Positions 2,491 to 31,350 of a DNA stretch of 33,392 bases are shown here, in pieces. This DNA comes from Bacteroidia bacterium (GTDB lineage Bacteria; Bacteroidota; Bacteroidia; Chitinophagales; Saprospiraceae): positions 1-33,392 of the forward strand of contig JAUIEA010000028.1 in NCBI GenBank assembly GCA_030429045.1, written 5' to 3'. The position numbers and the translations under genes are program-made. The notes below the pieces were generated by a model. It worked only from the letters and a program-made list of their open reading frames with translations, had not been told where the DNA came from and searched no databases. Each line of letters begins with the position of its first letter. Positions within the stretch are counted from its first letter, which is position 1.

Positions 2491-2518
2491 TTCTTAGATC
2501 CTCTCTACAAGCAAATTC

Positions 2519-5718: not shown

Positions 5719-5782
5719 GGAGTAAGTTTGATGGGGATTATATACTTTGTGCCCCAATGCCATTCCTCTTCAGCGTAATAAT

Positions 5783-9025: not shown

Positions 9026-9036
9026 TGATATAGCTG

Positions 9037-9880: not shown

Positions 9881-9914
9881 TTGCTAGCGGAGAATTCTAC
9901 AGATGATAGATTTG
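9881..9914 (+). promoter_or_regulatory. Candidate promoter of the kinase-phosphatase operon
   Basis: TAGATTTG (9907-9914) matches the Bacteroidota -7 consensus TAnnTTTG and lies 30 nt before the ATG at 9945. A TTG at 9881-9883 could be the -33 element, but the gap of 23 nt is longer than usual. Its placement right after the terminator and before the first gene of a long collinear run supports it. Confidence 0.45.
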
Positions 9915-9944
9915 AATCATCATTCAATCATAATCATCTGGGAA

Positions 9945-10613
9945 ATGAAGTGTACGGTCTGTGGTTTTGAGGAGAATCTGGCTCATGCTGCTGTATGTAA
10001 ACAGTGTGGAGCTGCTTTTCAGGGCGCGAGTGCCATTGAAGACAATAAGAAGACAACGCTGAGTCTTGGGCAGGATCCGCATGCGGTTACCAAATACACA
10101 GTGCTCGGCAAGCAATCAGGCGCATTGGAGCAGCCATCAAATTCAGAGGGCCGGCATTGTGCACATTGTGGTTATCAGATGAGGAAGGGCCTGGATCTGT
10201 GTCCCAATTGTGGATTTGAGCATACATCATCAGTTGGTAATGCTGTTGTTCCAGAACAGAAGAGCACGACGAGAGTTGGTCCTAAGACTAAGCGAATAGA
10301 AGAATTTACTGGCGAGTCTGGAGGTCCGAGAATTAGTTTGATTCCAATAAATAGTAAGAAGGCTTCAAGTCTGGAAACCTATGGTCAAGAGTTGGTACTT
10401 GATCGGGGCAAGGTGGATGAGACGGATGACACTATCTCAACATCGCCCCATCTTCGTATTTACTTTGATGAAGAAATGAAGGAGTGGAGGCTGGAAAATG
10501 CCGCCACGAACAAGGCGGTTTTTATTCAGGTAGAGGGAACCGTTTCAATTCGACCCGGGGCTGTGATACAAGTCGGTCAGAATAAACTATTTCAGTTCAA
10601 GATCGAGGAATAA
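9945..10613 (+). CDS. Double zinc-ribbon protein with C-terminal FHA-like domain
   Basis: A 222-residue protein with two four-Cys zinc ribbons, Cys3/6/18/21 and Cys72/75/86/89, separated by a flexible linker. The C-terminal domain (about 130-220) follows the FHA strand order: an LVLDRG strand, then IS-x-x-PH, a WRLENAATNKAVF region and an RPGAVIQVGQNKLFQF ending. The canonical Arg-Ser pair of phosphothreonine binders is degenerate, so it may bind a non-phosphorylated or atypical ligand. The frame is open from 9903, but the ATG at 9945 places the first ribbon Cys at residue 3, as in most zinc-ribbon proteins. No membrane segment is seen, so it is cytoplasmic. It is the first gene of the operon and abuts the kinase-FHA gene. 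Likely an adaptor for the kinases. Confidence 0.75.
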   Translation: MKCTVCGFEENLAHAAVCKQCGAAFQGASAIEDNKKTTLSLGQDPHAVTKYTVLGKQSGALEQPSNSEGRHCAHCGYQMRKGLDLCPNCGFEHTSSVGNAVVPEQKSTTRVGPKTKRIEEFTGESGGPRISLIPINSKKASSLETYGQELVLDRGKVDETDDTISTSPHLRIYFDEEMKEWRLENAATNKAVFIQVEGTVSIRPGAVIQVGQNKLFQFKIEE

Positions 10614-10628
10614 TTGAATGATCAAGCT

Positions 10629-11963
10629 ATGTTAGGCGTGAAGACCAGCGGTGTGTTCTACGAGAATGAAAGGATAAGTCTTCCTGAAAAACTTAATTTC
10701 AGGCAGGGTGACTTATTGCATCTTCATACTGGCCGCTATGCAGTTTCCCGGACCCTTGGGCAAGGTGGATTTGGCACGGTCTATCAATTGCTTGATGATC
10801 GGGGTGAATCTTTTGCTTTCAAGGTTCTCGATCTATGGCGGATGAAGCCCAATGAGTTTGATCAGATATCAGCACGGTTTGAGCAGGGCTTCAAGGCGGG
10901 CCAGGTAGAATCAAAATATCTCGTAAAAAATTATTCTCAAGGTAAGATTGCAGGGAACCCGTATATATTGATGGAGTTTTGCAGGAATGGTAGCCTTGGA
11001 TCTCGACAGCGTGAGTTTTTCAAGTTTGAACGATTCGAAGATGTGGCTTTGGCTATTTTGCACGCACTTCATGACCTGCATTTAAGTGGTATCATACACC
11101 GGGATATCAAACCTGATAATGTTTTATTTGATGACCATGACACTCCTAAATTGACAGACTTTGATATTTCTGGAAATATCAATCAGCGGATGACATCTGC
11201 AAATTGGCGGGGAGCAGTCAAGGAAATCTGGGGTACAGCGGTATATGCCCCCCCCGAGCAATTGAACCACAAGGATGCATATGCTTTGACCCGGCCATCT
11301 ATGGATATGTTTGCATTTGGGGTAACCTGTTATGAAACATTGACAGGTGGAAAGTATCCATATGGGAACTTTGAAGAATTTGAGAAGAATCCACTTGAGT
11401 TTTACAAGAAAGTGAAACAGGGTAAGTTTGAGCCTGTTACAGCATATCGATCGGATCTTCCGAGAGTTTGGGTAGATGCTATCCATGCCTGCCTGGTGGC
11501 TGATCCGGAGAAGCGAGTTCAATCTCCCAAAGAGATACTGGCTCTATTCGGATACCGTAAACCCGAATTGAATTATAATGAGTTTGTTCAGCATAATGAA
11601 TGGGTCTTAAAAGTGATGAATGGTGAAGAAGTCGGTCGTGAGTACAATCTGACTCGGTTGTCTAAGAGCGCAAATCGGCAAGTTCTTCGTATTGGGTGGG
11701 ACGCAAAGGGAGAGTCCGTCAATGACGTTCGACTCAAGGAGACTTTTACCAAATATATCTCTGAGAGTCATGCGACTTTGGAATGGGATCGAACTGAATG
11801 GGTTATACGAGATGGACAATGGTCACGATCAAAAGGGTGGCAGTCATCGTTGAATGGCACATTGGTCAATCAGGAGAGGATAGACAGTCTCACCGGCCGA
11901 AAGCTTCAGCATGCTGACATCTTAATGATAGGTGAGACTACTTTGAAAGTTCTTCATATTTGA
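10629..11963 (+). CDS. Ser/Thr protein kinase with C-terminal FHA domain
   Basis: A 444-residue cytoplasmic protein. The Hanks-type kinase domain (about 36-305) has Gly loop GQGGFG (44-49), Lys65 in FAFKVL, catalytic HRDIKPDN with Asp159 and Asn164, and the activation-segment end YAPPE. The metal-binding DFG is DFD (177-179), with Asp for Gly; the other catalytic residues are kept, so activity is likely. A FHA domain fills the C-terminus (about 325-444): LRIGWD, ISESHATLEW (His381), SLNGTLVN, HADILMIG. FHA domains bind phosphothreonine, so it could dock on autophosphorylated kinase or partner proteins. The frame starts with a TTG that directly abuts the previous stop; the ATG at 10629 is preferred. 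The stop is 5 nt before the next kinase start. Confidence 0.92.
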   Translation: MLGVKTSGVFYENERISLPEKLNFRQGDLLHLHTGRYAVSRTLGQGGFGTVYQLLDDRGESFAFKVLDLWRMKPNEFDQISARFEQGFKAGQVESKYLVKNYSQGKIAGNPYILMEFCRNGSLGSRQREFFKFERFEDVALAILHALHDLHLSGIIHRDIKPDNVLFDDHDTPKLTDFDISGNINQRMTSANWRGAVKEIWGTAVYAPPEQLNHKDAYALTRPSMDMFAFGVTCYETLTGGKYPYGNFEEFEKNPLEFYKKVKQGKFEPVTAYRSDLPRVWVDAIHACLVADPEKRVQSPKEILALFGYRKPELNYNEFVQHNEWVLKVMNGEEVGREYNLTRLSKSANRQVLRIGWDAKGESVNDVRLKETFTKYISESHATLEWDRTEWVIRDGQWSRSKGWQSSLNGTLVNQERIDSLTGRKLQHADILMIGETTLKVLHI

Positions 11964-11968
11964 AGCCG

Positions 11969-13636
11969 ATGTCTGTGTATCAACAAAAGGATAGATTTGA
12001 TGAGTACCTGATGGAAGAATACATCGGCACAGGATCATCAGCTGAAGTCTGGAAAGTAAGTGATCCAGATGGACATACGTTGGCGTTGAAGATTTTTGCG
12101 CCAGGTTCAGGACTTGATGATTATGGTCGATTGGTCTTTCGAGAGGAGTTTGAGAAGTCCTTTAGTCTGGAGCATCCGAATATTCTCCAGTCTATCCGGT
12201 ATGGCGACTATGACGATAAGCCATTTATTATCATGCCCTACAGTGAGCAGGGTTCGCTGATGAAAGTCCTGAGGGATCGGATGTTCCAACGGAAGCGTGA
12301 TGAACTTTCGTTTGAAACGTTGTTCACGGAAAGGGAGCTGGCCCTGATCATTCGTCAAGTGGCCGAAGCTTTGATCTACCTCAAGGAGAATGGCATCATC
12401 CATCGGGATATCAAACCGGATAATATTTTACTCGGGCAGCAGGATGGGCAGGTCCTTTACCTGTTAACAGATTTTGGAATCAGTACAAAGATTCGCAGAA
12501 CTATTCAGAAGCAGACGCGACAGAAGATCAATACGGATTCTGGGATGACTCCTGCGTATGCGCCTCCTGAAGTTTATCGCGGAGAGGTGTTTTCAAAAAG
12601 TGATATTTTTTCACTCGGGGTTTCCGTCTTTGAACTGGCGACGGGAGAGACACCAGCAGGGGCAAGTGGTATTGGTATCGGACTGGCCATGTTGAACGGG
12701 GCCGATGTGCCTTCTTTGAGTGGTGACTATTCCGTTCGATTTCAGGAGTTGGTTGCGTCCTGTATGCAGTTGGATGAGCAGAAGCGTTGCTCTGCAGAGG
12801 ATCTGCTTTTTTGGTCATCGCATTATTTGGATCAGGGATGGTGGCCCGTTATTCAATCTCCATCAGAGGTCCAATCTTTGGATCTCCATCAAGCTACTGC
12901 TGTTTCTGATGACCCACAGAATGTGGCCGGGGTTGAGGATCAATATGATAGTGAATACCTTGCTTTTGTAAAGAAGTATGGACAGCAGCAAGTTGACAGT
13001 TCAACTCACGAGTCAACACAGGTTCCTTCTCCTGAAGCAAGTGAACAGAAGGCAAGTAATGCGAGTGATCCTGTGGTTAATTCCCCGCGAAATCCCAGGA
13101 ACACATGGTCATTCTATGGCAGAAACTACTCTGTTAGAGCATCCATGATCTCTTTGGTCATTGTGCTGGCATTAGGTTATTTGGGCGCTGTTTTTCTCAT
13201 TCAACGGTCTGCTAATAATGCCTGGATCAATGGTCATGTCTCTATAGCATCCGAACGGTATTCGTGGGTTTGTACAATGACCGGGATGGACAGATTTTGT
13301 GAAAGAGCAGGAACCATGAAGGCATTGGATGAGTCGTTCATCTTCGGAGGGACGTTCATCTATAATCGAGCTGTTGTTCGGGATAAGTCGACAGGTAAAA
13401 AGGGATTTATTGATAAGTCAGGGCAAGTGGTAATTCCCGCTCGGTTTGACGATGTGGGTGGTTTCAATAAATTTGGCCTTGCGGCTGCAGCTTTAGAAGC
13501 TGGAAAGTATGGCATGATCGATCTGAACGGCGATTTTGTGATCGAGGCGAAGTACAGTGGATTGGATGTCAAGGAGGAATTTGTAGTAGGTGATCAAAAA
13601 GACACAATTTATTTTCAAACGCTGAATACGAAGTAA
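11969..13636 (+). CDS. Membrane Ser/Thr kinase with periplasmic WG repeats
   Basis: A 555-residue protein. A complete Hanks-type kinase domain (about 10-285) has Gly loop GTGSSA (20-25), Lys41 in LALKIF, HRDIKPDN (Asp147, Asn152), a normal DFG (168-170) and YAPPE. An acidic, Ser-rich linker follows, then one transmembrane helix (about 393-411). The C-terminus holds two WG-type beta repeats (about 467-532): KGFIDKSGQVVIPARFDDV and YGMIDLNGDFVIEAKYSGL. With the kinase in the cytoplasm, the repeats lie in the periplasm and are likely the sensor or docking part, as extracellular domains are in PknB-type kinases. A TTG at 11960 would overlap the previous stop; ATG 11969 is preferred. The next gene starts 10 nt later. 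Confidence 0.92.
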   Translation: MSVYQQKDRFDEYLMEEYIGTGSSAEVWKVSDPDGHTLALKIFAPGSGLDDYGRLVFREEFEKSFSLEHPNILQSIRYGDYDDKPFIIMPYSEQGSLMKVLRDRMFQRKRDELSFETLFTERELALIIRQVAEALIYLKENGIIHRDIKPDNILLGQQDGQVLYLLTDFGISTKIRRTIQKQTRQKINTDSGMTPAYAPPEVYRGEVFSKSDIFSLGVSVFELATGETPAGASGIGIGLAMLNGADVPSLSGDYSVRFQELVASCMQLDEQKRCSAEDLLFWSSHYLDQGWWPVIQSPSEVQSLDLHQATAVSDDPQNVAGVEDQYDSEYLAFVKKYGQQQVDSSTHESTQVPSPEASEQKASNASDPVVNSPRNPRNTWSFYGRNYSVRASMISLVIVLALGYLGAVFLIQRSANNAWINGHVSIASERYSWVCTMTGMDRFCERAGTMKALDESFIFGGTFIYNRAVVRDKSTGKKGFIDKSGQVVIPARFDDVGGFNKFGLAAAALEAGKYGMIDLNGDFVIEAKYSGLDVKEEFVVGDQKDTIYFQTLNTK

Positions 13637-13646
13637 ATACAGGATT

Positions 13647-15176
13647 ATGACACGAGATACAGTACAACTGTCTGGCGGAAACAGTCTCAAGCAGACGATG
13701 GTCCAGGGATTTCGGGCAATGAGTGGTAAGGATGTACCCAATTTTACCATATTGTTTCTGGATCCTACCCGAAATAAACTGAAGGGGGATTTTATGAATG
13801 TGGTTGTCCCTTATGTGGAGATCGGGAGAAGCTCAAAGTGTGCTATTCGTTACGGAGAGGATTATCCCACCGTAAGCCGGGTGCATGCAGCTTTGCAATC
13901 CATTAATGGGCAGGTGGTGATCAAGCATTTGGGTACCAACCCCACATTGGTGAATGGGCAGCCCGTCCAGGATTCAATGGTCTTGAATAATGGGGATGAG
14001 GTTCAGTTGTCTTATGAGGGTCCACGGATTCGTATCAATACCTCAGCTGTGAAGACTTCCACCATGAAGTTTACACAGCGTATGGCGTTGTATACCAGTC
14101 AGGCGTTAGTACCTTACAAGAAGGCTCTTGCCATTCTAGGATCGCTATTGATCCTGGCCGTGGCTGGCTTCGGCTATGCCAATTGGCAGCAAAAGCAGAC
14201 TATTGATCTGCAAGGCATGACCATTGAGGAGCAGCAATCTCGGATTGCTGATCTCGATTCCAAACAGAATATGAATGATCAAAAGGCTAATCAACTGAGA
14301 GGACAGTTGGCCTCCAACCGGCAATACACAGCACAGCAAAGGGCTGAAATGGAAGCTGAATTGAGACGATTGGAAGAAGATAACCGGATGATTGCTTCCG
14401 AGTTGCAGATGTTGGCGTCAAATGCTGAAGCAGAGAAGAATAAAATAAGTGGCGCAGATTTCCTAAAAGCGAATGAGCAGGATATTTATTTCATTTATGC
14501 TACAGAGATGACAACGATTCCGGCAGGTGGTGGAGCGCCGATTATTAGGACAGAAGGATTATGGGCAGGCACTGGATTTATTACCAGCGAAGGAGATTTT
14601 GTGACTGCTAGGCATGTGATTATGCCATGGAGATACAATGACGACGAATTGCTAATCTATAACCAACATGAAACTGCAGGTGCAAAGATCGAGGTGAAAT
14701 TCCGGGCAATCTCTCCTTCTGGTGATAAATTTGAATTTACGTCCAATGAGATGAAAAGCTCTGATGCAAAGGATGAAAAATTTGACTACGAAGGGCATCC
14801 AGTAAAAGTTTCAATGAACAGTGAGACGGATTGGGCCTATATGCATATCAATGATCGTCATGGTTCATTTGTTGCTGATCGTAAGTTGTCTTCGCAATTG
14901 AATCCAGGTGATATTGTCCATGTAGCCGGTTATCAGTATGCCTATTATACCCAGGATGTGGAAAAAGGAATATCTCCAAATTATTCTTCAACTCAGGTTG
15001 CTCAGTCCGGGCTTCGTCAGGGAGTGATTCAAACCTCCAATCGGGGATTTGGCCAGGGTTCCAGCGGCGCACCGGCGATCGTTGAAGTCGATGGTGAATT
15101 CAAATTGGTTGGTATTGCTGTTGCCGGTGTCGGATCCGAGCAGGGTTTAATTGTGCCGATCGGAAATCTTCGTTAA
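13647..15176 (+). CDS. FHA-transmembrane-coiled coil-trypsin-like protease fusion
   Basis: A 509-residue single-span membrane protein. The N-terminal FHA domain (about 50-132) has VEIGRSSKC, VSRVHAAL (His80), a TNPTLVNG segment and NNGDEVQLSY, so the phosphopeptide-binding residues are kept. A hydrophobic helix (about 159-178) is followed by a heptad-like coiled coil (about 182-265) rich in Gln, Glu, Arg and Leu. The C-terminal domain looks like an S1-type serine protease: AGTGFITSEGDFVTARHV with His323, TDWAYMHI with Asp395, and GQGSSGAPAIV with Ser473 as nucleophile. By topology the FHA domain reads phosphorylation in the cytoplasm while the protease faces the periplasm. No PDZ domain is present, unlike DegP. 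It lies 10 nt after the membrane kinase gene and is probably its partner. Confidence 0.88.
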   Translation: MTRDTVQLSGGNSLKQTMVQGFRAMSGKDVPNFTILFLDPTRNKLKGDFMNVVVPYVEIGRSSKCAIRYGEDYPTVSRVHAALQSINGQVVIKHLGTNPTLVNGQPVQDSMVLNNGDEVQLSYEGPRIRINTSAVKTSTMKFTQRMALYTSQALVPYKKALAILGSLLILAVAGFGYANWQQKQTIDLQGMTIEEQQSRIADLDSKQNMNDQKANQLRGQLASNRQYTAQQRAEMEAELRRLEEDNRMIASELQMLASNAEAEKNKISGADFLKANEQDIYFIYATEMTTIPAGGGAPIIRTEGLWAGTGFITSEGDFVTARHVIMPWRYNDDELLIYNQHETAGAKIEVKFRAISPSGDKFEFTSNEMKSSDAKDEKFDYEGHPVKVSMNSETDWAYMHINDRHGSFVADRKLSSQLNPGDIVHVAGYQYAYYTQDVEKGISPNYSSTQVAQSGLRQGVIQTSNRGFGQGSSGAPAIVEVDGEFKLVGIAVAGVGSEQGLIVPIGNLR

Positions 15177-15186
15177 TCCATTTAAA

Positions 15187-16266
15187 ATGACTGTCATGCG
15201 AACAATTAACATAACGTTCTTTCTTGCTTTTCTTCTAATGACCATCCGTGTCGAAACGCTTGATGCCCAGCAAGGGAAATTGCCTCCGTTGCCAGGTACT
15301 GAAAAAAGTAAAGCAAAACCAGAAGGTAATCTGCGGCCTTCGGATACCACAGAAGGTGTTACGGAGGTCCAGGAGAATAGTGAATATCTGATCGGCATGG
15401 CCGCCGCTATGAAAAATATGGTGCTCAGTGCCATTAAAGATGCACTCTTCGTCGTAAAGCAGGATTATTATATTGAAGATGGAAATGGTAATAAAACAGT
15501 TTCTCCGGGCAAAGACTATTTTGGCCGGAAGTATGGGATTGCTGTCGCTGCCAACGGTCGATTGTGGACAATGAGTAGTCAGATCTCGCCCTGGTTAGCT
15601 GATGAGGGATTCAGTAATGTCTCCGGTGTAAAGACTCCTGTTCGTTCTACGACAGGTGTTCGCCGGCTGGATGATTTCCGAAGTTTCAAGAATCAGACCA
15701 TGGTGGCTCATGTGGAGAATAACCTCTATGTGGGTTACTATGACTACCCTGAACCCATACGGTATGCCTCGATCAGCAAGAATCTCCAACGTACGGAAGG
15801 ACGATTGATCCTATTCTATGTAAATAATGGAGAAGATCCGGAGACTGCAGAGGTGCAGGCAAAAGTGTTTAATATTGATCCGGACTGGAACACAAAAGGC
15901 ATGATCAGAAATCCGTTGCCAGACTATAGCGATAAGCTCTTTCTGGGTGGGGTTTATGTCGTCGAAGAAAGTCCCCAGGATGTCACTCCGCAAAAGGCAA
16001 GCGAGCAGCCCAGAAGCGGAAGAAACGGTCGGGGAAAGAGTAAGCCAACCGAATCTGCGAAAGCAGAAGGGCCGGCATTGGGAACAATTCAGTTCAAAGT
16101 GGTCGGACTTTATCAGCGGCAGGGCAATGACAAGTATATTGTTACGCTGCCGACGGAGATCGAAATGAAGGCAGAAGGGGAAGAGGCTCAAGAGAGTAAA
16201 TCATCTCGTTCAGGCCGTTCAGGTCGTTCAGGTCGGTCAGGCCGTTCGAGTCGATCAAGAAGGTAG
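15187..16266 (+). CDS. Secreted protein with Arg-Ser-Gly-repeat tail
   Basis: I do not recognise a family. The 359-residue product has a signal peptide (MTVMRTINITFFLAFLLM, probable cleavage after LDAQ at about 28). A mixed alpha/beta domain follows (about 60-270), with YGIAVAANGRLWTMSS, NNLYVGYYDYP and a VFNIDP strand. A spacer rich in Arg, Gly and Lys precedes a last beta segment, and the protein ends in an Arg-Ser-Gly repeat of about 20 residues that would be very basic. Such tails suit binding to peptidoglycan, lipopolysaccharide or nucleic acid, but this is inference. The frame is open from 15151; ATG 15187, 10 nt after the previous stop, gives a normal signal peptide. A second ATG at 15196 is equally possible. 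Confidence 0.72.
   Translation: MTVMRTINITFFLAFLLMTIRVETLDAQQGKLPPLPGTEKSKAKPEGNLRPSDTTEGVTEVQENSEYLIGMAAAMKNMVLSAIKDALFVVKQDYYIEDGNGNKTVSPGKDYFGRKYGIAVAANGRLWTMSSQISPWLADEGFSNVSGVKTPVRSTTGVRRLDDFRSFKNQTMVAHVENNLYVGYYDYPEPIRYASISKNLQRTEGRLILFYVNNGEDPETAEVQAKVFNIDPDWNTKGMIRNPLPDYSDKLFLGGVYVVEESPQDVTPQKASEQPRSGRNGRGKSKPTESAKAEGPALGTIQFKVVGLYQRQGNDKYIVTLPTEIEMKAEGEEAQESKSSRSGRSGRSGRSGRSSRSRR
16207..16260 (+). repeat. 9-nt tandem repeat encoding Arg-Ser-Gly
   Basis: Six 9-nt units based on CGTTCAGGT lie in frame at the 3' end of the secreted-protein gene; the first four encode Arg-Ser-Gly and the last two have drifted. In-frame repeats of this size can change number by slippage without breaking the frame, varying the length of the basic tail. 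Confidence 0.85.
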
Positions 16267-16306: not shown

Positions 16307-18082
16307 TTGCTGGAACTGCAAATCATAGGAAGAACCCATGTGGGTCAACAACGGACACTCAACGAGGACACCCTGGCCTTTGGGTTGGATAACGAGTGGT
16401 CCCAGTGGGCAACTGTTGAAACGTTACCTGATGAAACCGTCCAGCTAGACCGGGCCGCGATGATCCTCGCTGATGGCATGGGTGGAGCGGAAGCAGGAGA
16501 GATCGCGTCTGCACTGGCCTGTTCGTCTATGCAGGAGTACTTTTCAAGTGCCTTGTCATCCGTTCAGAAAGACGATGATGATATCATTATTCGTCTGCGA
16601 CAGGGATTGCTATTGGCACATGATAGCATTGTTGCGGATACGATGCTTCATCCGGCACGAAGAGGAATGGGTACCACGATTATTGCCGGTCTGATTGATT
16701 GGGGTAAACTCTATGTGATGTGGTCGGGTGACAGTCGGGTGTATCGTTACTTCCCGACAGACCAGGATTCAAGTGGAAAGGAGCATCCTGATCATCTACA
16801 AATGATCAGCCGCGATCACAGTATGGTTTGGGACATGGTCCTGCAGGGTGAGTTGACAGCAGAGGAAGCACGTGTGCATACCTACAGCAATGTCATCACC
16901 CAAAGTCTTGGCGATGTCCAGAACAAGCCATCTCCTGATTATCGCGTGACCCCGCTCTATAAGGGAGATGTCTTGTTGTTTTGTACTGACGGGCTGAATG
17001 GGATGCTGAGCGATCAGGAAATCCAGGATCTTTTTCGAACCCATCAGGACTTGGTTCAACTTGCCGATGCACTCATTGAAGCAGCCAACCTGGCCGGGGG
17101 GACGGATAATATCACCCTGATCCTGGTTCGCGTAACCAATGGACCTGGCCGACCACATTTGGAGGATATCCACATTCAGGATAAAGTGGTCACCGAAGGA
17201 GGGGCTTCCCTGATGCAGAAAATGAAGCAACCTGTCGATGGGCCCTCCGTATCACCTCCGGACCATTTAAATCAGGTCTCGCAGCTGGACCATCCGGGTC
17301 GGAGAAGAAGAACCCGTATATGGCCATTCGTCCTGCTCTTTTGCCTGTTACCCTTGTTTTTGATCGGGTTGTGGTGGTACTTGAAAGTTCCGGAAAACAA
17401 CCTGTCCATTCAGGAGCGCATCCAGTTTCTTCAGGCAGAGGACATCTCATCTTTTCTGAGTAGCAAAGAAAAATATAAATTTGATAGCCTGGTTCGCGAA
17501 TACGAGTTGGGTCAGATCAGTGAGGATAAGATGCGCGGCGCCATTGAATATTATGAACAACAGGCTGGTGTATTGAACCCAACGGGCACGTTTGGAACAG
17601 TACCGGAGGGAGAGCGGACGGAAGAAACGGAGGTGAAGCGAGAAGTGGTGGCATCCGATAGATCCATGCCTTTTTGGAATAAGCATTTTCATAGGCTTCA
17701 GAAGGATGTCCGTGTATTGATGACAGGCATTCGAAGTGATCCAGGGCTTGGACAGAAAGAAAAGGAAGAATTTCTTACTGCCTTGATTATCCTGGAGAAG
17801 GAGATTCTGGCCTCATTTGATGAAACAGGGGTGGTCAAGTTTAAAGACGTCGAGGCCAGGGAGAAGCGTGATGAATTGCTGAAAAAGTACAAACAAGTCA
17901 GTGAGAACTATCGAAAATGGAAAGAGGAGAAAGCAGTTCCTGGCCAGGAAACAATCAGTCCGAAACAACCCGTATCCGCTCGTCAAGGTGAAAGAGAGTC
18001 AGTTTCAGACACGGTAAAGCAGCATAAGCAGATGTCTTCTCCACCGATTGATTCAGTGAAACAAAGCAAAGAGAATGAATAA
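16307..18082 (+). CDS. Membrane-anchored PP2C-type protein phosphatase
   Basis: A 591-residue protein. Residues 1-277 form a PP2C (PPM) Ser/Thr phosphatase with its metal-site motifs: NEDTLAF (19-25), ADGMGG (55-60, Asp56), GTT (122-124), GDSR (141-144), CTDGL (226-230) and GGTDN (264-268). It should remove the phosphates placed by the two kinases and so reset the FHA-bound state. A basic stretch RRRRTR precedes a transmembrane helix (about 338-358). The remaining 230 residues are highly charged and helical and would be periplasmic; they show no known domain. There is no ATG near the domain start, so the TTG at 16307 (or the CTG after it) must be used, since the next in-frame starts cut into the fold. 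The last 8 nt overlap the next gene. Confidence 0.92.
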   Translation: MLELQIIGRTHVGQQRTLNEDTLAFGLDNEWSQWATVETLPDETVQLDRAAMILADGMGGAEAGEIASALACSSMQEYFSSALSSVQKDDDDIIIRLRQGLLLAHDSIVADTMLHPARRGMGTTIIAGLIDWGKLYVMWSGDSRVYRYFPTDQDSSGKEHPDHLQMISRDHSMVWDMVLQGELTAEEARVHTYSNVITQSLGDVQNKPSPDYRVTPLYKGDVLLFCTDGLNGMLSDQEIQDLFRTHQDLVQLADALIEAANLAGGTDNITLILVRVTNGPGRPHLEDIHIQDKVVTEGGASLMQKMKQPVDGPSVSPPDHLNQVSQLDHPGRRRRTRIWPFVLLFCLLPLFLIGLWWYLKVPENNLSIQERIQFLQAEDISSFLSSKEKYKFDSLVREYELGQISEDKMRGAIEYYEQQAGVLNPTGTFGTVPEGERTEETEVKREVVASDRSMPFWNKHFHRLQKDVRVLMTGIRSDPGLGQKEKEEFLTALIILEKEILASFDETGVVKFKDVEAREKRDELLKKYKQVSENYRKWKEEKAVPGQETISPKQPVSARQGERESVSDTVKQHKQMSSPPIDSVKQSKENE

Positions 18083-19445
18083 TCTACCAAACCATACGTG
18101 CCGATCAGGAGGGCCTACCCTATTTACTCAGATCACACTGGCCATTTCATTGATGCTCCTTCTCAATGGTTGCTTCGGGTGTGGTGGTGACGATCAGGAA
18201 CTGGGAATCGCGGTGAACGGGCGGAGTGATCTGCCGGCTGAGGGTGAAGGTATCTATGGGGTGCAGGTCCGGACCGATTGTGCCATGGATTACTGTGTAC
18301 CCGTTGGCGAGACGGTTCAATTAAAAGCATTGGGATGTGGCCATTGTGCCGGTGCGAAATGGACCATTACGCAACCGGATGGAACGAATTTCAAAACGGG
18401 CAGAGGAGATACCATGTCCTTCTATACCACGGTGCCAGGCACGTGGCTGGCTGTATTGGAATGGGAAGATCAGAATCCGGTGAAACACTTTATCATTGCC
18501 AGACCTAAGGAGGAGGTAGAATTGGCAGCTGCAGACCCTCCCGTCAGTGAACTGCCGGAAGTTACCCGGCGGGAGGTGCGAACCGGGACGTCTCTATCTG
18601 AATCAAAACCGGCAGAAAAGCAGGGAATTCTTGATCCGGTGAGTCCATCGGCATCTGTGCCAGTTTCAAAAAATGCCAGATCGGAGCCGGAACGCAAGGA
18701 CCTTCCTGACCTGGATATTAAGGGGGTGGCACTAGAACTGGATGGCCGTCAGGCATTTCTGAACGGATTGGCGGATGGCCAATATCTGGTTAAGTATCGT
18801 CTGGATGGGAAAGACTACCAGAGGGATATTGAAGTGAAACAGGGCGCTGCAATGTGGCCGTTAATATTGGTGAGTACCAGGCGCCAGCAGGTAGAATTGT
18901 ATGCTGTCCAGCGCAAGGTTGATCAAATGGAGCGGTCCACCCTGGTTCGAGCCACTTTCGGTGCCGATGCGCCAGCCGTTGCGTCAACACCCTCCGTGCC
19001 CAAGGAAGAATCGAAACCCGCTCCAGTGAAGCAGGCTGCTGCGATGAAGGGAAAATCTGAACGGATTGGGCCCAAACAACCTGCTGGTATGCCTACTTGT
19101 GCGAGTTGGGTAACCAAAGCTGAACTGACGCTCACCGCCTCTGGACCTTGTGAATTACGTGACGCCTGGCTATGGACAGATCAGGATGGTACAGTAAAGA
19201 TGCACGTAAAAACAAAGGATGGCTCCATTAGTAAGCGATTGCCTGCCGGCTACAATCAGGTCACATTGACCAATCTTGATATTGTCTTAGCCCAGGGTGA
19301 GACGGCAACGCTGGTTCTGGAAAGTGTAGGATGTCGGATGGCAAACCTGACAACCTGTTCACCTGCAATCAATCAGTCCAGCATTCTGAAAATTGGGAAT
19401 CTGAGTGGTGTGAGTGTGTTATCGGATATGTTGATCCGGTATTAG
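18075..19445 (+). CDS. Lipoprotein with Cys-rich beta domain and Pro-rich linker
   Basis: No named family is recognised. The 456-residue protein has a long N-region, a hydrophobic segment and the lipobox LLLNGC (acylated Cys at about 33), soon followed by FGCGGD. The first mature domain (about 45-150) looks Ig/PKD-like, with VPVGETVQLKALGCGHCAGAKWTITQPDG and an ordered strand pattern ending in HFIIARP. A Pro, Ser and Lys-rich linker follows, then a short beta domain (about 215-290), another linker, and a last Cys-containing beta region. It starts with ATG inside the phosphatase gene (8-nt overlap), implying translational coupling. By position it could be the outer-membrane lipoprotein partner of the system, as TagQ is in Pseudomonas, though no sequence similarity is claimed. 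Confidence 0.72.
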   Translation: MNNLPNHTCRSGGPTLFTQITLAISLMLLLNGCFGCGGDDQELGIAVNGRSDLPAEGEGIYGVQVRTDCAMDYCVPVGETVQLKALGCGHCAGAKWTITQPDGTNFKTGRGDTMSFYTTVPGTWLAVLEWEDQNPVKHFIIARPKEEVELAAADPPVSELPEVTRREVRTGTSLSESKPAEKQGILDPVSPSASVPVSKNARSEPERKDLPDLDIKGVALELDGRQAFLNGLADGQYLVKYRLDGKDYQRDIEVKQGAAMWPLILVSTRRQQVELYAVQRKVDQMERSTLVRATFGADAPAVASTPSVPKEESKPAPVKQAAAMKGKSERIGPKQPAGMPTCASWVTKAELTLTASGPCELRDAWLWTDQDGTVKMHVKTKDGSISKRLPAGYNQVTLTNLDIVLAQGETATLVLESVGCRMANLTTCSPAINQSSILKIGNLSGVSVLSDMLIRY

Positions 19446-19566
19446 TAGTAGTTGTTCGTTAAGATGGATTTTAGTTAAGAATGGAATTTTCACTTTGAGA
19501 TTGAAATAAGAACTCCTTGATATGCAGTCATGTATGTGCCAAATGAGAATATTAAAGTTATTCAAT

Positions 19567-22500
19567 ATGAGCAGATGGTTTGTGATATTGTTTTTTTTAA
19601 TATCCTACATAAGTGAAGTAGGTGCTCAGTTATCTGCAATGGAATTTACGCCGAATAGTGCAGCTTGTAATTTGACTTCTTCAATTGGGATAAGCGTTGC
19701 CCCTTGTGCTTATGATGGTACAGCATCATTAGTCATTATTGCTACCCCAGAGGTGCAAATAGTCGGAGCAAATCCAATTTCTATAGCTAATGGGGAAGGC
19801 ACCTTTGAGATCCATATTGATCAGGGTTTTTCCGGAACTTTCGAAATCGGTTTTCAAGTAGAAACTGTAACCAATGACAACGGATGCAATACCTATCCGG
19901 GTGATTCGTGGGCAGAAGAATTTGCGGCGTCTTGTGTGTGCCCAGACATTGACCCGATCGGGGATGTGATAGCCTGCGAAAGTTATGTTTTACCGATAAT
20001 TACAGGAACCGGTTTAACAGGTAATCAAGCTTACTACGATGAACCGAATGGAGGAGGGAATATGTTTGATGAAGGTGCAACAATTACAACTTCTGGCACT
20101 TATTATGCCTATGATGGTGAGTCGGGATGCGAGGATGAGGAAACATTCATGATTACAATTAGCTTACCAGTTTCCCCGACATTCAGTTTTGCCACGACCT
20201 ATTGCCAGGGCGATACGCCAGATGATTTGCCAACGACCTCGGACGAGGGGATCACAGGGACATGGGATCCGAGTAGTATTTCGACTTCAAATGCAGGTAC
20301 GGAAACGTATACTTTTACACCGAGTGGCGGCGAATGTGCAAATGAAGTAATGGTAGATGTAGAGGTCAATGCCCCGACAGATCCGACATTCAGTTTTGCC
20401 ACGACCTATTGTCAAGGCGATACGCCAGATGATTTGCCAACGACCTCAGATAACGGGATTGCAGGAACGTGGGATCCGAGTAGTATTTCAACTTCAAATG
20501 CAGGTACGGAAACGTACACCTTTACACCGAGTGGCGGCGAATGTGCAAATGAAGTAATGGTAGATGTAGTGGTCAATGCCCCGACAGAACCGACATTCAG
20601 TTTTGTCACGACCTATTGCCAGGGCGATACGCCAGATGATTTGCCAATGACCTCGGACAATGGGATCACAGGAACGTGGGATCCGAGTAGTATTTCGACC
20701 GCAACAGCAGGTGTGATTACATACATGTTTACTCCTGGTGTTGGCCAGTGTGCAGCACCGGTTACGATTGACGTAACAGTGAACCCCAATCCTGTCCTTA
20801 ACTCATTTGCCATCCAGCCATCAGCTTGCGGCCAGATGAACGGTGCTATTGATATCTCTGTGAGCAATTGTCCCGGCTCATGTATCTATAATTGGGTCGG
20901 GGTTGGGCCAAATAATTTTTCAAGTTCGGAAGAAGATATTTCCGGACTTGCACAAGGTACTTATGCACTCACTATCACCAATGGTGATGCTTGTATCTTC
21001 GATACGCTTTTGACCGTTCCCTCTCAGGATGGACCTCAGATTTCTGCAATTACCGGATTGATGGATGGTGGCCAGTATTGTCAAGACACCATGGTGGAAC
21101 TTGGCGTAAACGTTACAGGGGGAAGCATGCCTTATTCCTTCCTCTGGGATGATGGTAGTCAAAATTCTACCCGGAAGTTAGTGCTTCCGACACCCGTACA
21201 GGGAAGCGAAAACAAGAGCTACGCGGTGACTGTCTCAGATGCAACCAACTGTTCTGATGAAAAAACAATTTCCGTTGATGTATTCCACAAGGTGGCCGTA
21301 AATGCCGGGGATGATGTGTCCGCTTGTGTTGGAAAGATGGTCATTCTGACCGGTGATATTGGTTATGGGAGCGATCCGAATTGGTCGATCCTCTCTGGAC
21401 AAGGTAATCTGGATCCCACTGATCCACTGAATGCAATATACAGCCCGGGCAACCAGGAGGTAGGCGAAGTCTTGATTCGGTTGTCTTCCGGGCCAAACGG
21501 GGCGTGCCCTGGTTCTTCTGATTCCCTGATCATTGCCTATAGCATTCCAGCAAAGCCTATGTCGAGCAATACTTCGTTCGCTATTTGTGCCGGGGATACG
21601 CTCATTTTATCTGTCGATCAACCACCTTCGGGATTCAAGGTCATTTGGAGAGATACAAGTCAGGCAATTGTAGGAAATGCCAAGGATCTGAGCATTGGTG
21701 TTCCTGGGGACTATACGGCACATTACTATGATGCAACATTGGACTGTGAGGGCCCCGGCTTGATATTTACAGTCACTCAGAAAACCGGTCTTCCGGCCGC
21801 AGATATTACCATCGAATTGCCGGCCAACATCTGTTCTGGCGATGTGGAACTTGGGGTCGCTTTCCCGTCTGGAAGCGGGAATGTGGAGGTGGAGTGGTCT
21901 GTTGATATGATGGAACAAATGGGTAATCCTGTCCAGTTTAACCTGTCTGCGGGCAAGAAAATGGGCTTTGTGACGGTTACGGACGAGTCGGGATGTCCAA
22001 CAAAAAAAGATGTTCTCTTCAGTGTCCTCCAGACTCCGTTGGAGTCTGACTACGCTGTTGACCCTGACAGGGAATTGTTCTGCTTTGAGGAAACCGCAAC
22101 TATAATAGCAAAGAAATCAGATTACACGTATCAATTGACGAACCCGACAGGAAATACCTCGATCACGGATAATGGTAATGGATCCTGGATTTGGGATCCA
22201 GAAGGATATGTCGGTCAAGCCATTGTGGAACTGGAGGTGAGGAATGAGGCCAATGATATGGTTTGTTCGTCGAACTTTACTCCAACCATCACCTGGCGCA
22301 AGGAACTCAATCCTGATTTTAATATTGCTGGAACAGCTCAAGTCGGAAAACAAGTTACAGTCTCTTTAAAGACACCCCTGGATCTAGCTTCTGAATATGC
22401 AATTTTATATGTCATCCGGCCATCATCAAACATTGATACCATTCCATTTAATTCGGATACTGTACAATATGTCTTTTTGGAGTCGAAACTGAATATGTTG

Positions 22501-24249
22501 CAGGTGGTGAGAGGATTTATCATTGATCCAATGTGTGAGGTTGACACAAAGAAATCATATACCATTTCCGGTGCGAATGACTTGGTTGCCGGTATTCAGG
22601 TTGGGATATTTCAGAACGACGTGGAACTTTGTTTTTCTCCAAATGAAACGATCTGTTTCTCAGCTGCCAATTCTACTATTGGAACGGATTTTGGCAAGTA
22701 CGGAACAAACGCTAATATTATTGATTCAATCTATTGGTTGGTAACTAAGAATGGTAGTGAGATCTATAATTGGAAGGGGAAATCTGGAGAAGCGCAAGCA
22801 AGTATACATCTATTAGATACTAGTCATTGTATAGCTTTAGAAATTGGCATGTACACGATTAATCTTGAGCTTCAACAGAAACAGTTTGATGATTCAATTG
22901 AAAAATCAAAAGCTACGTTCAGCTTTTCAGTCATTGCCCCAATAACGGAAGTGAATTTTAAGGCTAAAGAGATTTCAAGCCAGCAAGAGCAGGTTACCAG
23001 TGGTCCTACTGATTTGCTTTATCTGTGTCCAGGACAAACCTATATGATCAACCCGGATTTTACGGGCATTTATTCCGATACCACGTCGAATAACTCTTTT
23101 GTATTTGGAGGCAATACGAGTTCGGCTCCACTGCAATATACAGCCGATAAGCCGGGTACTTCTGTGGACCTGTTCTTCACGGGAAAGACTGCCGGTGGAT
23201 GTTTGATTTCGGATGCACTGCGGTTGATCATTCGTCCGCAACTGGATGTCTTTGCTGCGGACACCCTGCGGGTTTGCAATGGAGATACCCTGGATGTCGA
23301 CATCGATTCAGGTTACACATCGACTATCTGGTCCTGGGATGATGGCAGTATGGAGGCAAAGGATTCGACATCGATCCATCTGTTGCTCAGTGAATCAACT
23401 ACATTGTCCATCCAGGCGGACAGCCTGGGGTGCTCTTACAGCGACTCGCTGCACATGCAAGTGGTCAAGGTAGAGGGTGACGTTGAGGCCTGGCCAGAGC
23501 CTGGTTGTCCGAATGGCCTGTATCGGGTCGTACCCGGGGCAGGTACGGTGATCGACTATCTGTCCCCGTTACCGGGTCTGGACACCTTGAACTCATACTT
23601 CTTCCGGGTACCTCTGGAATTGCTCAATGATACAGTGATCATTGGTTTGCGAAGCAGGGAGCTCGCGGGTTGCCAGTCAGAAATCAGGGATGTGTATCCA
23701 TCAGATACCAATAGTTCTGCTTTGGGTGAATTATTTGCGGATTTGTGTACGCAAACACTTCTGGTGCCAGGAGACCAATGTTCAGGTGGCGAAGGGACGT
23801 GGTACCAGATCGATAAACTGTCAGGAGCCGCTAATGAGGTCCTGGGTGCGAAGGAGAATTACCTGAACCAGGTCAGTGATGACTCCCTCGGGCAATATAC
23901 CTATGTCTTTGTGTGTAGTGACTCCTGTGCGCAGGTCGCCACTACACGGAGTGAAGGCCCTCATTCGCCACCATGTGCTCCGGGCGAGATCTCCTGGTCC
24001 TTTCAATTGATGCCTAACCCTGCCAATACGTTCTGTACTCTTCAGCTGGTGTCGGATGCCCCGGGGAATTATGACCTTGTCCTGTATGATATTGCCGGCA
24101 GGATGATGGGGAATACATCCCTGAACCTTCCGGAAGGATCCAATGAAGTTCCGATCGATGCATCTCGTTGGTCATCGGGCATGTACATCGTCGTGCTGTC
24201 GGATGAACAGGGTCATCGGCAAATGGCCAAACTCATCATCAGTCGGTAA
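19567..24249 (+). CDS. Large T9SS-exported repeat protein
   Basis: A secreted protein of about 1560 residues. ATG 19567 gives an ideal signal peptide (MSRWFVILFFLISYISEVGAQ); in-frame ATGs at 19522, 19534 and 19543 would lengthen it. After an adhesin-like region with CPDIDPIGDVIAC and ITTSGTYYAYDG come three near-identical 69-residue repeats (about 204-410), then many Ig/PKD-like beta modules rich in Asp, Thr, Asn and paired Cys. The last 80 residues form a type A T9SS sorting domain, with LMPNPANTFCTLQL, YDIAGRMMG, DASRWSSGMYIVVL and a basic KLIISR ending. T9SS cargo is cut at this domain and attached to the surface or released. It sits inside the kinase operon, 76 nt (up to ATG 19522) after the lipoprotein gene, and the next gene starts at the base after its stop. 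Confidence 0.9.
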   Translation: MSRWFVILFFLISYISEVGAQLSAMEFTPNSAACNLTSSIGISVAPCAYDGTASLVIIATPEVQIVGANPISIANGEGTFEIHIDQGFSGTFEIGFQVETVTNDNGCNTYPGDSWAEEFAASCVCPDIDPIGDVIACESYVLPIITGTGLTGNQAYYDEPNGGGNMFDEGATITTSGTYYAYDGESGCEDEETFMITISLPVSPTFSFATTYCQGDTPDDLPTTSDEGITGTWDPSSISTSNAGTETYTFTPSGGECANEVMVDVEVNAPTDPTFSFATTYCQGDTPDDLPTTSDNGIAGTWDPSSISTSNAGTETYTFTPSGGECANEVMVDVVVNAPTEPTFSFVTTYCQGDTPDDLPMTSDNGITGTWDPSSISTATAGVITYMFTPGVGQCAAPVTIDVTVNPNPVLNSFAIQPSACGQMNGAIDISVSNCPGSCIYNWVGVGPNNFSSSEEDISGLAQGTYALTITNGDACIFDTLLTVPSQDGPQISAITGLMDGGQYCQDTMVELGVNVTGGSMPYSFLWDDGSQNSTRKLVLPTPVQGSENKSYAVTVSDATNCSDEKTISVDVFHKVAVNAGDDVSACVGKMVILTGDIGYGSDPNWSILSGQGNLDPTDPLNAIYSPGNQEVGEVLIRLSSGPNGACPGSSDSLIIAYSIPAKPMSSNTSFAICAGDTLILSVDQPPSGFKVIWRDTSQAIVGNAKDLSIGVPGDYTAHYYDATLDCEGPGLIFTVTQKTGLPAADITIELPANICSGDVELGVAFPSGSGNVEVEWSVDMMEQMGNPVQFNLSAGKKMGFVTVTDESGCPTKKDVLFSVLQTPLESDYAVDPDRELFCFEETATIIAKKSDYTYQLTNPTGNTSITDNGNGSWIWDPEGYVGQAIVELEVRNEANDMVCSSNFTPTITWRKELNPDFNIAGTAQVGKQVTVSLKTPLDLASEYAILYVIRPSSNIDTIPFNSDTVQYVFLESKLNMLQVVRGFIIDPMCEVDTKKSYTISGANDLVAGIQVGIFQNDVELCFSPNETICFSAANSTIGTDFGKYGTNANIIDSIYWLVTKNGSEIYNWKGKSGEAQASIHLLDTSHCIALEIGMYTINLELQQKQFDDSIEKSKATFSFSVIAPITEVNFKAKEISSQQEQVTSGPTDLLYLCPGQTYMINPDFTGIYSDTTSNNSFVFGGNTSSAPLQYTADKPGTSVDLFFTGKTAGGCLISDALRLIIRPQLDVFAADTLRVCNGDTLDVDIDSGYTSTIWSWDDGSMEAKDSTSIHLLLSESTTLSIQADSLGCSYSDSLHMQVVKVEGDVEAWPEPGCPNGLYRVVPGAGTVIDYLSPLPGLDTLNSYFFRVPLELLNDTVIIGLRSRELAGCQSEIRDVYPSDTNSSALGELFADLCTQTLLVPGDQCSGGEGTWYQIDKLSGAANEVLGAKENYLNQVSDDSLGQYTYVFVCSDSCAQVATTRSEGPHSPPCAPGEISWSFQLMPNPANTFCTLQLVSDAPGNYDLVLYDIAGRMMGNTSLNLPEGSNEVPIDASRWSSGMYIVVLSDEQGHRQMAKLIISR
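20176..20796 (+). repeat. Three 207-nt tandem repeats in the T9SS-cargo gene
   Basis: Units begin at 20176, 20383 and 20590, each opening with CCGACATTCAGTTTTG. The first two are almost identical at the DNA level across the full 207 nt. The third matches for about the first half and then diverges from about 20700. Each unit encodes one 69-residue module with TYCQGDTPDDLP and GTWDPSSIS motifs. Near identity at silent sites points to recent duplication or gene conversion. Confidence 0.93.
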
Positions 24250-24876
24250 ATGATGGTCATGTCTGCCTATATGTGGTTGTGGCCATGTGCCCTGGTCAGC
24301 TTGCTCGGCAAAAACGGGATGACCCAGCAGACCGATCATCTTCGTTCGGAAGGGAATGTGATCCGCAAGGAAGATCAGAAAGTACGTGATCTTGTCCTGG
24401 AGACCCTGTGGGATTATGAGAAATATTGCCTGGGTCTTGGCGAATGCCCGGATGGCCGTGCGGCTGGATGTCGGGCTTGTCGGGAGCTATTTTCTTCCTG
24501 GGCAACGGTCTATGACGATCTGCATGAGGAAAGTGAGGGGCAAATGGACAGTGGCGTCTTTTATGACTTTCAGCAACTGACCTATCCTGAGGGTATTCGC
24601 GCATCGTTTGAGGAGGAGTGGATGGCTGATCTCCTCTTGCCCGGACGGGAAGGAATGCGAATCAGTCCGCCATCGGATGATCTGTCTGAATGGTATACCG
24701 TAGGTCTGACTGTAACGAAACTGTTGTGGACACGGATCGACCCCTCTGGTCGGGTCGAGCCATTAAAGCAACCGCGGAATGTGCCCTTGCGATTTGAATT
24801 GCGTGTAAATCCCAAGATAGAAATGGGACGCATCTCCAATATTTATTTCAATCGAAAAGAATCGGGTAAATCATGA
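24250..24876 (+). CDS. Hypothetical protein, truncated-looking partner of the next gene
   Basis: A 208-residue protein with a weak hydrophobic start (MMVMSAYMWLWPCALVSLLG) that could be a signal peptide. No family is recognised. It has a CRAC-type Cys cluster (about residue 73-76) and, from about 78 to the end, the same block order as the N-terminal half of the following gene: VYDDL, then a GL-x-V-TK segment, a charged loop, and PLRFELRVNP followed by GRISNIY. That suggests a shared NTF2-like or similar alpha+beta domain. It starts with the base after the stop of the T9SS-cargo gene and overlaps the next gene by 4 nt, so translation is coupled on both sides. It is probably periplasmic, though the signal is not strong. 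Confidence 0.65.
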   Translation: MMVMSAYMWLWPCALVSLLGKNGMTQQTDHLRSEGNVIRKEDQKVRDLVLETLWDYEKYCLGLGECPDGRAAGCRACRELFSSWATVYDDLHEESEGQMDSGVFYDFQQLTYPEGIRASFEEEWMADLLLPGREGMRISPPSDDLSEWYTVGLTVTKLLWTRIDPSGRVEPLKQPRNVPLRFELRVNPKIEMGRISNIYFNRKESGKS

Positions 24877-26324
24877 AAACGTACAATGATCTCTTGACCT
24901 TCAGGTGGCTGCTCTTTCTGGTTCTTTCGATATTCTGGGGTGCTGAAGGATTGGCTCAATCGCAATTTCCTCCTGTGCGAAGTGATTCGATTGTTTGGGG
25001 TGAAGGGCTGGTGTCCTCCGATGATCGGGACGCCATTGTCAAGGCCATTCGGATTGGTATGGACCGCTATTGGAATTTGAGTGATTTTATCCATCCTGAT
25101 CGCGGGACGTTCGATGAAGAAAAGGGCCGGGAATTTTTACAACTCTTTCAGGGCAGTGATAAGGTCTATAATGACCTGGCAGGTTTGGAAGGTGAGCAGG
25201 TTTCCCCGGCGCATTACCGCGATAAAGTGGGACTGAATATGGCCAATACGGGAGTTCAATTTCGCATTGGTGATCCCTATATTGAGGATATCCAAAAGGT
25301 GGATGGTTATATTGTTGCCAAGGTATTATTCACAAAGACGATGTTGAACGGACTGGATGATCGGAATCGTATCATCATGTATCCATTGAAAAAAGCACCA
25401 AGGCTACCCCTTTCTGTTGAAATGAAACTTTCACCTGATGGAGCGGGGGGTTATCAATCATCCATCTATGCTATCCGAAGTAATCATGTCCGCGTCAGGA
25501 AAGAGACAACGGGAAGGTACCTTGATCTTTCCGCCGGGGGTATATCCGGATTGTCATTGAATACCACTCTGGCACGGCCCTGGGAGGGGTTGACTGCCCC
25601 TGACGGAAGCTATGTTGCCGGGCACTTCGAGGTCCAGAAGGCTGGCCATTTCAGAAATTCTGATCGCCTGTACTGGATCGTGGGACTTGGTATTCGAAGA
25701 GGCATATTGACCACCTCCCTACCGGAAGGGCTTACCGATGAAACGGAATATGATTCACGGATCATCAATGGCGTATCCTACGGGGTAACGAATTGGGAGA
25801 TCACCCAGCTCCATCCGGGGAGTGAGGTGGTGATGGAGCACTGGACCGGATATGTGCCGGTCGGTGTGCGGTATCAACTCCGTCCAGGACTTCAAACTGA
25901 ATGGTTGCTGGATGCGCAAATCCTGGCAGGTTACAGCATCATTAGTCAGGATATGCAGGGAACTATTCAGCGGAGTCGATTATTTGGCCCCCTCCATGAG
26001 CCGATCTGCGCTCCTGTGCGTGCCCTGAAGAAAGGCGATGAGCGAACGACCTGGTCCCAGCCTTTTGTCAATTTTCGCTTCTCTCCAGGATATTATCATG
26101 CTATTGATAATTGGGGTAGCAGTACGCGTACGGTCGGTTGGTTTGTTCGGGCAGATATAGAGCTGAGCCTTTTACCTCTGTTCAGTCGAGAGGGAGATGA
26201 GCAGTGGGCTATCCTGGATGACAATGGCATTTTGGACCTGAACACTGAAGCAGGTGTCCTGTACCAAGCAGTAAGTCCTCTATCTGCAGGGATACGAATT
26301 GGAGTTTATTGGAAAATGTATTAA
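24873..26324 (+). CDS. Secreted protein: shared alpha+beta domain plus barrel-like C-terminus
   Basis: A 483-residue protein with a signal peptide (hydrophobic 11-25, cleavage near GLAQ). Residues 45-210 contain VYNDL, a GVQFRIGDP strand, VLFTKTMLNGLDDRNR and PLSVEMKLSPDG, the same order as in the preceding gene. The C-terminal half (about 220-483) has amphipathic strands with aromatic girdles (YWIVGLGIRRG, GVRYQLRPGLQTEWLLDAQILAGYS, SAGIRIGVYWKMY) and ends in Tyr, as outer-membrane barrels do. This suggests a periplasmic domain fused to a small outer-membrane barrel. The function is unknown. It overlaps the upstream gene by 4 nt and lies 18 nt before the TssR-like gene, so the three probably act together. 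Confidence 0.72.
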   Translation: MKTYNDLLTFRWLLFLVLSIFWGAEGLAQSQFPPVRSDSIVWGEGLVSSDDRDAIVKAIRIGMDRYWNLSDFIHPDRGTFDEEKGREFLQLFQGSDKVYNDLAGLEGEQVSPAHYRDKVGLNMANTGVQFRIGDPYIEDIQKVDGYIVAKVLFTKTMLNGLDDRNRIIMYPLKKAPRLPLSVEMKLSPDGAGGYQSSIYAIRSNHVRVRKETTGRYLDLSAGGISGLSLNTTLARPWEGLTAPDGSYVAGHFEVQKAGHFRNSDRLYWIVGLGIRRGILTTSLPEGLTDETEYDSRIINGVSYGVTNWEITQLHPGSEVVMEHWTGYVPVGVRYQLRPGLQTEWLLDAQILAGYSIISQDMQGTIQRSRLFGPLHEPICAPVRALKKGDERTTWSQPFVNFRFSPGYYHAIDNWGSSTRTVGWFVRADIELSLLPLFSREGDEQWAILDDNGILDLNTEAGVLYQAVSPLSAGIRIGVYWKMY

Positions 26325-26342
26325 TCATTTAGATTGATTGTT

Positions 26343-28958: not shown

Positions 28959-28961
28959 CGC

Positions 28962-31345: not shown

Positions 31346-31350
31346 TTTCT

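Follow-up and report, generated by a model that had tools for sequence, protein, structure and literature searches.

Sequence analysis confirms that the gene at 13647-15176 of the window (the whole stretch of Bacteroidia DNA analysed here, 33,392 nucleotides in length) encodes a protein in which an FHA domain is followed by a single main hydrophobic span and then by long helices and a trypsin-like domain. With moderate confidence, we regard this gene as part of a phospho-signalling cassette conserved in Bacteroidota, in which a periplasmic protease under phospho-control would act as the membrane effector. The envelope targets of bacterial Ser/Thr kinases are often unknown. In the present case, one molecule combines a phosphothreonine reader with a protease predicted to be periplasmic, and its gene is clustered with those for kinases and a PP2C phosphatase across several Bacteroidota families, and thus transmembrane phospho-control of proteolysis becomes directly testable. 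The cassette also supplies a candidate partner (the secreted protein family A2) and suggests a well-defined set of point mutants. The domains, residues, predicted topology, conservation, and linkage on which this reading draws are established by sequence comparison; the features are collected in Table 1.

Table 1. Features of the cassette and of the FHA-trypsin protein, in window positions
Feature	Position	Strand	Basis or remark
Zinc-ribbon protein; C-terminal half FHA-like by eye	9903..10613	+	Pfam DZR 23.6 bits, below cut-off 27.3
Ser/Thr kinase with C-terminal FHA	10614..11963	+	Pfam 4.2e-38, FHA 5.9e-12
Ser/Thr kinase with TM span and WG repeats (predicted periplasmic)	11960..13636	+	Pfam 6.4e-39, WG 1.5e-11
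FHA-TM-helical segment-trypsin protein, 509 aa	13647..15176	+	ORF, ATG start, Pfam, relatives
FHA domain, residues 58-121	13818..14009	+	Pfam PF00498, GarA profile match
T143, conserved Thr in the stretch from FHA to membrane; candidate phosphoacceptor	14073..14075	+	Alignment columns
Transmembrane span, residues 160-178, N-in predicted	14124..14180	+	Hydropathy and charge
Long helical, possibly coiled-coil segment, residues ~190-264	14214..14438	+	Single-sequence AF2
Trypsin-like protease domain, residues ~270-509	14454..15173	+	Pfam, PDB profile matches
H323, catalytic His candidate, TARH motif in window	14613..14615	+	26/26 identical
D395, catalytic Asp candidate, DWA motif	14829..14831	+	26/26 identical
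S473, catalytic Ser candidate, G-x-S-G motif	15063..15065	+	26/26 identical
Secreted partner, family A2	15196..16266	+	ORF; signal-peptide-like N-terminus, basic C-terminal tail
PP2C phosphatase, TM span, long C-terminal tail	16307..18082	+	Pfam PP2C_2 2.7e-11
Co-directional downstream genes, envelope-type	18075..31821	+	Gaps <=76 bp

Domains, residues, and predicted topology of the FHA-trypsin protein

A preliminary description of this DNA had proposed a gene for an FHA domain joined through a membrane span and coiled coil to a trypsin-like protease. Both the gene model, with its exact ends and start codon, and the order of FHA domain, span, and protease in a single polypeptide (Pfam and hydropathy) are borne out, and frame 1 of the reverse strand over the same interval has many stops. 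In Pfam, FHA (PF00498) scores 60.8 bits (1.8e-16; curated cut-off 20.7), Trypsin (PF00089) 33.9 bits over residues 366-500 (3.6e-8; cut-off 20.6), and Trypsin_2 (PF13365) 34.4 bits over residues 308-490 (4.5e-8; cut-off 27.6). The protein was also said to have no PDZ domain; indeed, no PDZ model was matched at E <=0.01 (Pfam), and the protease domain forms the end of the protein. Among PDB chains, the nearest match of the FHA domain is GarA (profile A1, 3.2e-9), and profile A3 matched trypsin, chymotrypsin, and HtrA/DegP chains (best 7.9e-7). Whole-gene dN/dS is 0.02-0.05 in four gene pairs, with rough values in two of the four because dS is saturated there.

Conservation was followed in two alignments, A1 (17 rows) and A4 (15 rows, six of them common with A1), which together hold 26 distinct proteins, i.e., the window protein and 25 relatives, some of which are tandem copies or near-identical pairs. 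The cut protease of genome G187 was left out of A1 and G139 was left out of A4; the FHA protein of G139 carries FHA and vWA matches and no trypsin match in a Pfam scan. The catalytic triad candidates named in the preliminary description (H323, D395, and S473) are correctly numbered and invariant, and the FHA binding residues, likewise expected to be present, are identical in all 26 proteins at G60, R61, S77, and H80. R78 is kept in 17 of 17 rows of A1 and 14 of 15 rows of A4 (the remaining one has K), and N103, found within VNG in the window protein, is kept in 16 of 17 and 14 of 15 rows, respectively, with R at this position in G303. A passage of a 2005 survey names GR, SxxH, and NG as the phosphothreonine-binding motifs of FHA domains (PMC1262709); all three are present in the window FHA domain. 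In PDB profile alignments, the TAxH segment at H323 aligns with plasminogen activator 1a5i, S473 falls on GDSGGP in the solved chains shown, and D395 matches the DWALIKL segment in trypsins 1os8 and 1sgt, whereas in the 1a5i alignment D395 is out of register and its column falls on another segment, DWTECEL. The His and Ser segments of 1a5i and the DWALIKL segment of 1os8 and 1sgt are those that hold the catalytic residues.

The best 19-residue hydrophobic window falls between the FHA and protease domains in 26 of 26 proteins. In the window protein, its mean hydropathy is 2.14, compared with 1.61 for the next best, and second-best windows score 0.79-1.76 in the proteins for which they were computed. 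Within 15 residues of the span, K/R are more numerous on the N-terminal side in 22 proteins, tied in four, and less numerous in none. Because these charges lie mostly on the FHA side, the FHA domain is predicted to be cytoplasmic and the protease periplasmic; the earlier proposal that the two domains lie on opposite sides of the membrane thus stands as a prediction from hydropathy and K/R charge across the 26 proteins. The single-sequence AF2 model of the FHA-protease, which has a mean pLDDT of 42 and a pTM of 0.27, places helices at residues 155-188, 193-223, and 229-264, with block pLDDT values of 77-91 for residues 191-260; apart from these helices, the model is too poor to be used.

The threonine between the FHA domain and the membrane might itself be phosphorylated. 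The T143 column holds 16 T and one S in the 17 rows of A1 and 11 T and one S in the 15 rows of A4, and it is not conserved in the double-FHA proteins. It bears on a rival explanation, in which the FHA domain acts as a tether or scaffold whose only task is to bring the protease to kinase complexes, while periplasmic proteins are cut constitutively. Docking is a frequent function of FHA domains, and the same domains and gene linkage would fit such a role; however, the conservation in A1 of the segment from FHA to membrane, together with T143, hints indirectly at more than docking. We consider that a docking function alone is possible, albeit rather unlikely.

Gene neighbourhood and recurrence of the cassette

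The FHA-trypsin gene lies in a run of 14 genes (9903-31821) that have the same direction and gaps of <=76 bp. The two kinases and the phosphatase that had been reported nearby are indeed there: the kinase genes are located directly upstream and the PP2C gene two genes downstream, all with intact motifs, and the gene for the secreted protein sits between FHA-protease and PP2C. The kinase-FHA protein has HRD and DFD motifs and a best hydropathy of only 1.29, the kinase with WG repeats has HRD and DFG motifs and a span at residues 396-414, and PP2C has DGMGG, GDSR, and DN motifs and a span at residues 338-356. A strong hydrophobic span is found in 7 of 9 second-kinase proteins and in 13 of 14 PP2C proteins. 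No FHA match was found in the zinc-ribbon protein with Pfam. The downstream genes encode, in order, a 456-aa protein, a T9SS-sorted protein of 1575 aa, proteins of 208 and 483 aa, a TssR-like protein of 874 aa, an ABC ATPase, an FtsX permease, and a 156-aa protein.

Several observations concern the wider window. The preliminary description made no mention of the secreted partner gene, the zinc-ribbon gene, or the 14-gene co-directional run. The 1575-aa protein (19522-24249) is repetitive, carries a T9SS sorting domain (Por_Secre_tail), and matches SprB weakly. The TssR-like protein (26334-28958) matches the TssR N-terminal barrel (6.4e-17) and the TssR vWA model (18.3 bits, below cut-off), and its gene is directly followed by those for the ABC ATPase and FtsX permease (28962-31345). 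Upstream, a Reg_prop/Y_Y_Y-type sensor with a His_kinase domain and a LytTR response regulator (5747-9807) end 95 bp before the cassette, and two neighbouring cysteine-rich proteins, probably secreted and alike by eye, are encoded at 1708-3196.

Searches with the window protein gave matches in 8 of the 100 nearest genomes and in 19 of 396 genomes of the order (15 strong and four weak). Among 395 Bacteroidota genomes, profile A1 matched 35, at full length only in G000, G672, and G630, and profile A4 matched 287 at 1e-6, although in most of the matches listed just one of the two domains was covered. FHA and protease occur in one frame in at least 14 of the 395 sampled genomes, from six families (profile A4), which is the outcome of the search for the same fusion elsewhere that the preliminary description advised. 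This count is a lower bound, obtained from three candidates scored per genome, and one-domain A4 matches (e.g., G739, G754, G560, and G452) lie outside it. The two domains are matched in a single stretch in nine genomes (G672, G630, G000, G597, G168, G157, G103, G579, and G531) and in separate stretches in five (G624, G604, G710, G765, and G699); both are present according to Pfam in all five proteins scanned besides that of the window (G604, G624, G710, G157, and G168).

Neighbourhoods were examined in 28 genomes picked by the FHA-trypsin protein alone, namely the 15 with strong order-level matches and 13 further Bacteroidota genomes (G672, G630, G604, G624, G710, G597, G157, G168, G103, G579, G531, G765, and G699), and kinase and PP2C genes were called by profile or phmmer match to the families of the window. 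The cluster contains a kinase gene in 28 of 28 neighbourhoods and PP2C in 27, and these genes are separated from the protease by no more than about four genes, to one side or the other; the sole neighbourhood without PP2C is that of G017, whose protease gene is truncated at the end of the contig. In 13 order-level loci, including the window, the kinase-FHA gene was found 12 times and the zinc-ribbon and secreted partner genes 11 times each, and the locus without a kinase-FHA gene (G064) lies at a contig edge. Tandem FHA-protease copies, two or three in number, occur in G080, G093, G129, and G147. The three tandem copies of G080 (L034:13152-17870) are of the FHA-TM-trypsin type, with the triad in all. 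In some cassettes, a MotA/TolQ/ExbB-type channel gene was seen (L049:7724-9630 and L081:12320-13135), and in L049 a vWA/coiled-coil protein adjoins the FHA-protease. It should be noted that the 2005 survey already describes one genome in which FHA genes cluster with genes for kinases and phosphatases (PMC1262709), so that the linkage theme is not new and linkage alone does not show gating.

Clusters of this composition might also represent a toxin or phage-defence module built, like KKP, from kinases and a phosphatase, in which the protease would be an additional effector. In the portion of the KKP report considered here, two kinases and PP2C likewise form one cluster (PMC11341870); moreover, the kinase profiles show a relationship to defence kinases, and the protease region has a match to RT-Protease_XI (37.5 bits). 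On the other hand, the PADLOC kinase matches seem to reflect similarity common to kinases in general, the scores for NCBIfam defence equivalogs fall far short of the cut-offs, neither kinase has a cold-shock domain match at E <=0.01 (Pfam), and no match to the FHA-protease was found in the plasmid collection. We judge a module of this kind to be very improbable. The label of a defence system was rejected, as specific matches are lacking and the RT-Protease_XI match is read as shared protease similarity.

The secreted partner and a possible mechanism

The A2 gene of the window has in-frame ATGs at 15187, 15196, and 15238. The family was found in 12 of the 396 genomes of the order, each of which also bears the protease, and it adjoins the protease in every one; against the 15 strong protease matches, the hypergeometric value for this co-occurrence is ~2e-20, a figure that treats the A2 and protease order samples as the same set and ignores phylogeny. 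No A2 gene was found in the stretches fetched for G672 and G630, and none is among the matches listed for G282 and G187; therefore, A2 cannot be a universal substrate. The A2 alignment comprises 11 rows, and a 228-aa neighbour in G282, unlike A2 in sequence and with no A2 match listed, was left out. A MotA/ExbB-like gene was noticed in the fetched stretch of G672 and also in G084, and gene sizes suggest such a gene in G630 and G064 as well.

None of the 11 members of A2 has a trypsin match or a convincing match of any kind in Pfam, a PDB profile search with A2 gave no convincing match and no trypsin, and the single-sequence fold of the A2 neighbour has a mean pLDDT of 36. By eye, TARHVIMPW of the protease resembles TMSSQISPW of A2. 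The comparison of profiles A1 and A2 gave an HHalign probability of 0.3%; with the protease domain only, the local score was 17.6, compared with a column-shuffle null of mean 12.6, sd 2.5, and maximum 19.1 (5 of 100 shuffles reached or exceeded it), and global mode gave no match. The A4 protease profile scored 19.1 against A2 (null mean 12.4, sd 2.2, maximum 20.9; 1 of 100 shuffles as high or higher), with an HHalign probability of 0.6%. For the positive control, A1 against four distant FHA-trypsins, the HHalign probability was 98%. Thus, the second shuffle test suggests kinship between A2 and the protease, which neither the first shuffle test nor the HHalign probabilities support, and the idea that A2 is related to the protease domain, i.e., a possible degenerate protease, is judged less likely than not.

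We infer that the FHA domain binds phosphopeptides, that such binding affects proteolysis, and that A2 has a role in the process. In the proposed sequence of events, the kinases would phosphorylate threonine on partner proteins or on the conserved T143, and the FHA domain would bind the phosphothreonine. Binding might alter clustering, or the register of the long helices across the membrane, and in this way switch the protease, after which the membrane PP2C would reset the state. Where present, A2 would be the likeliest periplasmic substrate, inhibitor, or cofactor. A more elaborate version, an inside-out pathway in which cytoplasmic kinases and a phosphatase switch the trypsin-like protease via one polypeptide and the secreted, degenerate protease relative A2 serves as a dedicated partner, would amount to a protease/pseudoprotease pair under phosphothreonine control; we regard it as unlikely in this full form.

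Signals might also travel in the opposite direction, with the protease domain, perhaps together with A2, acting as a receptor for a periplasmic event and responding to it by a rearrangement of the FHA domain, whereby kinases are recruited or controlled. The predicted periplasmic WG repeats of one kinase and the PP2C tail beyond its span make periplasmic sensing plausible, and A2 looks secreted and is tightly linked. However, the identity of the triad in 26 of 26 proteins suggests cleavage and not sensing alone, and an outside-in receptor appears improbable compared with the phospho-controlled protease favoured here.

Comparison with known systems

The fusion as such is not new, since a table in a 2008 survey includes one FHA-FHA-Tryp protein, NP_811686.1 of Bacteroides thetaiotaomicron, which is labelled there as general metabolism/signalling (PMC2605481). 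Like the window protein, it is a Bacteroidota protein with an N-terminal FHA fused to a trypsin domain; it differs in having two FHA domains instead of one, and the survey passages that deal with it do not mention kinase or phosphatase neighbours (PMC2605481). The relatives in G604, G624, and G710 also have two FHA domains, along with one main hydrophobic span and trypsin, and are encoded near kinases and PP2C, but unlike the window protein they are without the long segment from span to protease. In open-access titles and abstracts, a scope that most subscription papers fall outside, no functional study of an FHA-trypsin protein or of the cassette was found.

With the HtrA/Deg proteases, of which membrane-anchored forms exist, the window protein shares a trypsin-like domain, and HtrA/DegP chains are among its PDB profile matches. 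It differs in that no PDZ domain follows the protease and an FHA domain is located across the span instead. GarA/OdhI and FhaB-type proteins with PknB/PknG-class kinases are similar in that GarA is the nearest match of the FHA domain and kinases and PP2C are encoded nearby (the window PP2C is Stp1-like, with 183.7 bits, below the NCBIfam equivalog cut-off of 230). GarA/OdhI are soluble metabolic regulators, whereas the FHA domain of the window protein is linked across the membrane to a protease.

The PpkA/PppA/Fha threonine-phosphorylation module of type VI secretion systems (T6SS) resembles the cassette in bringing kinase, PP2C, and FHA together, and a TssR-like gene lies in the same run in the window. 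PpkA and Fha are named in the T6SS context in the abstract of PMC3953482. TssR matches above cut-off occur in 16 of 248 order genomes, and among the order-level loci a TssR relative is near the cassette only in G303 and G282. With the one sheath model tried for a T6SS-iii system, TssC (PF17541), a match was found in one of 13 cassette genomes (G050, which is not the genome of the window) and was absent in the other 12, including all three with a TssR match. The window protein scores 26 bits with TagH/VI_FHA (TIGR03354), compared with an NCBIfam cut-off of 120.25. On the TssC and TIGR03354 results, T6SS membership was rejected.

The KKP system has a similar core, i.e., two Ser/Thr kinases and PP2C in one cluster. 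Its PfkA carries a cold-shock domain, unlike the window kinases, which have no such match, and the part of the KKP report considered here describes no FHA-protease (PMC11341870). In the window, the protease and A2 genes sit between the kinases and PP2C.
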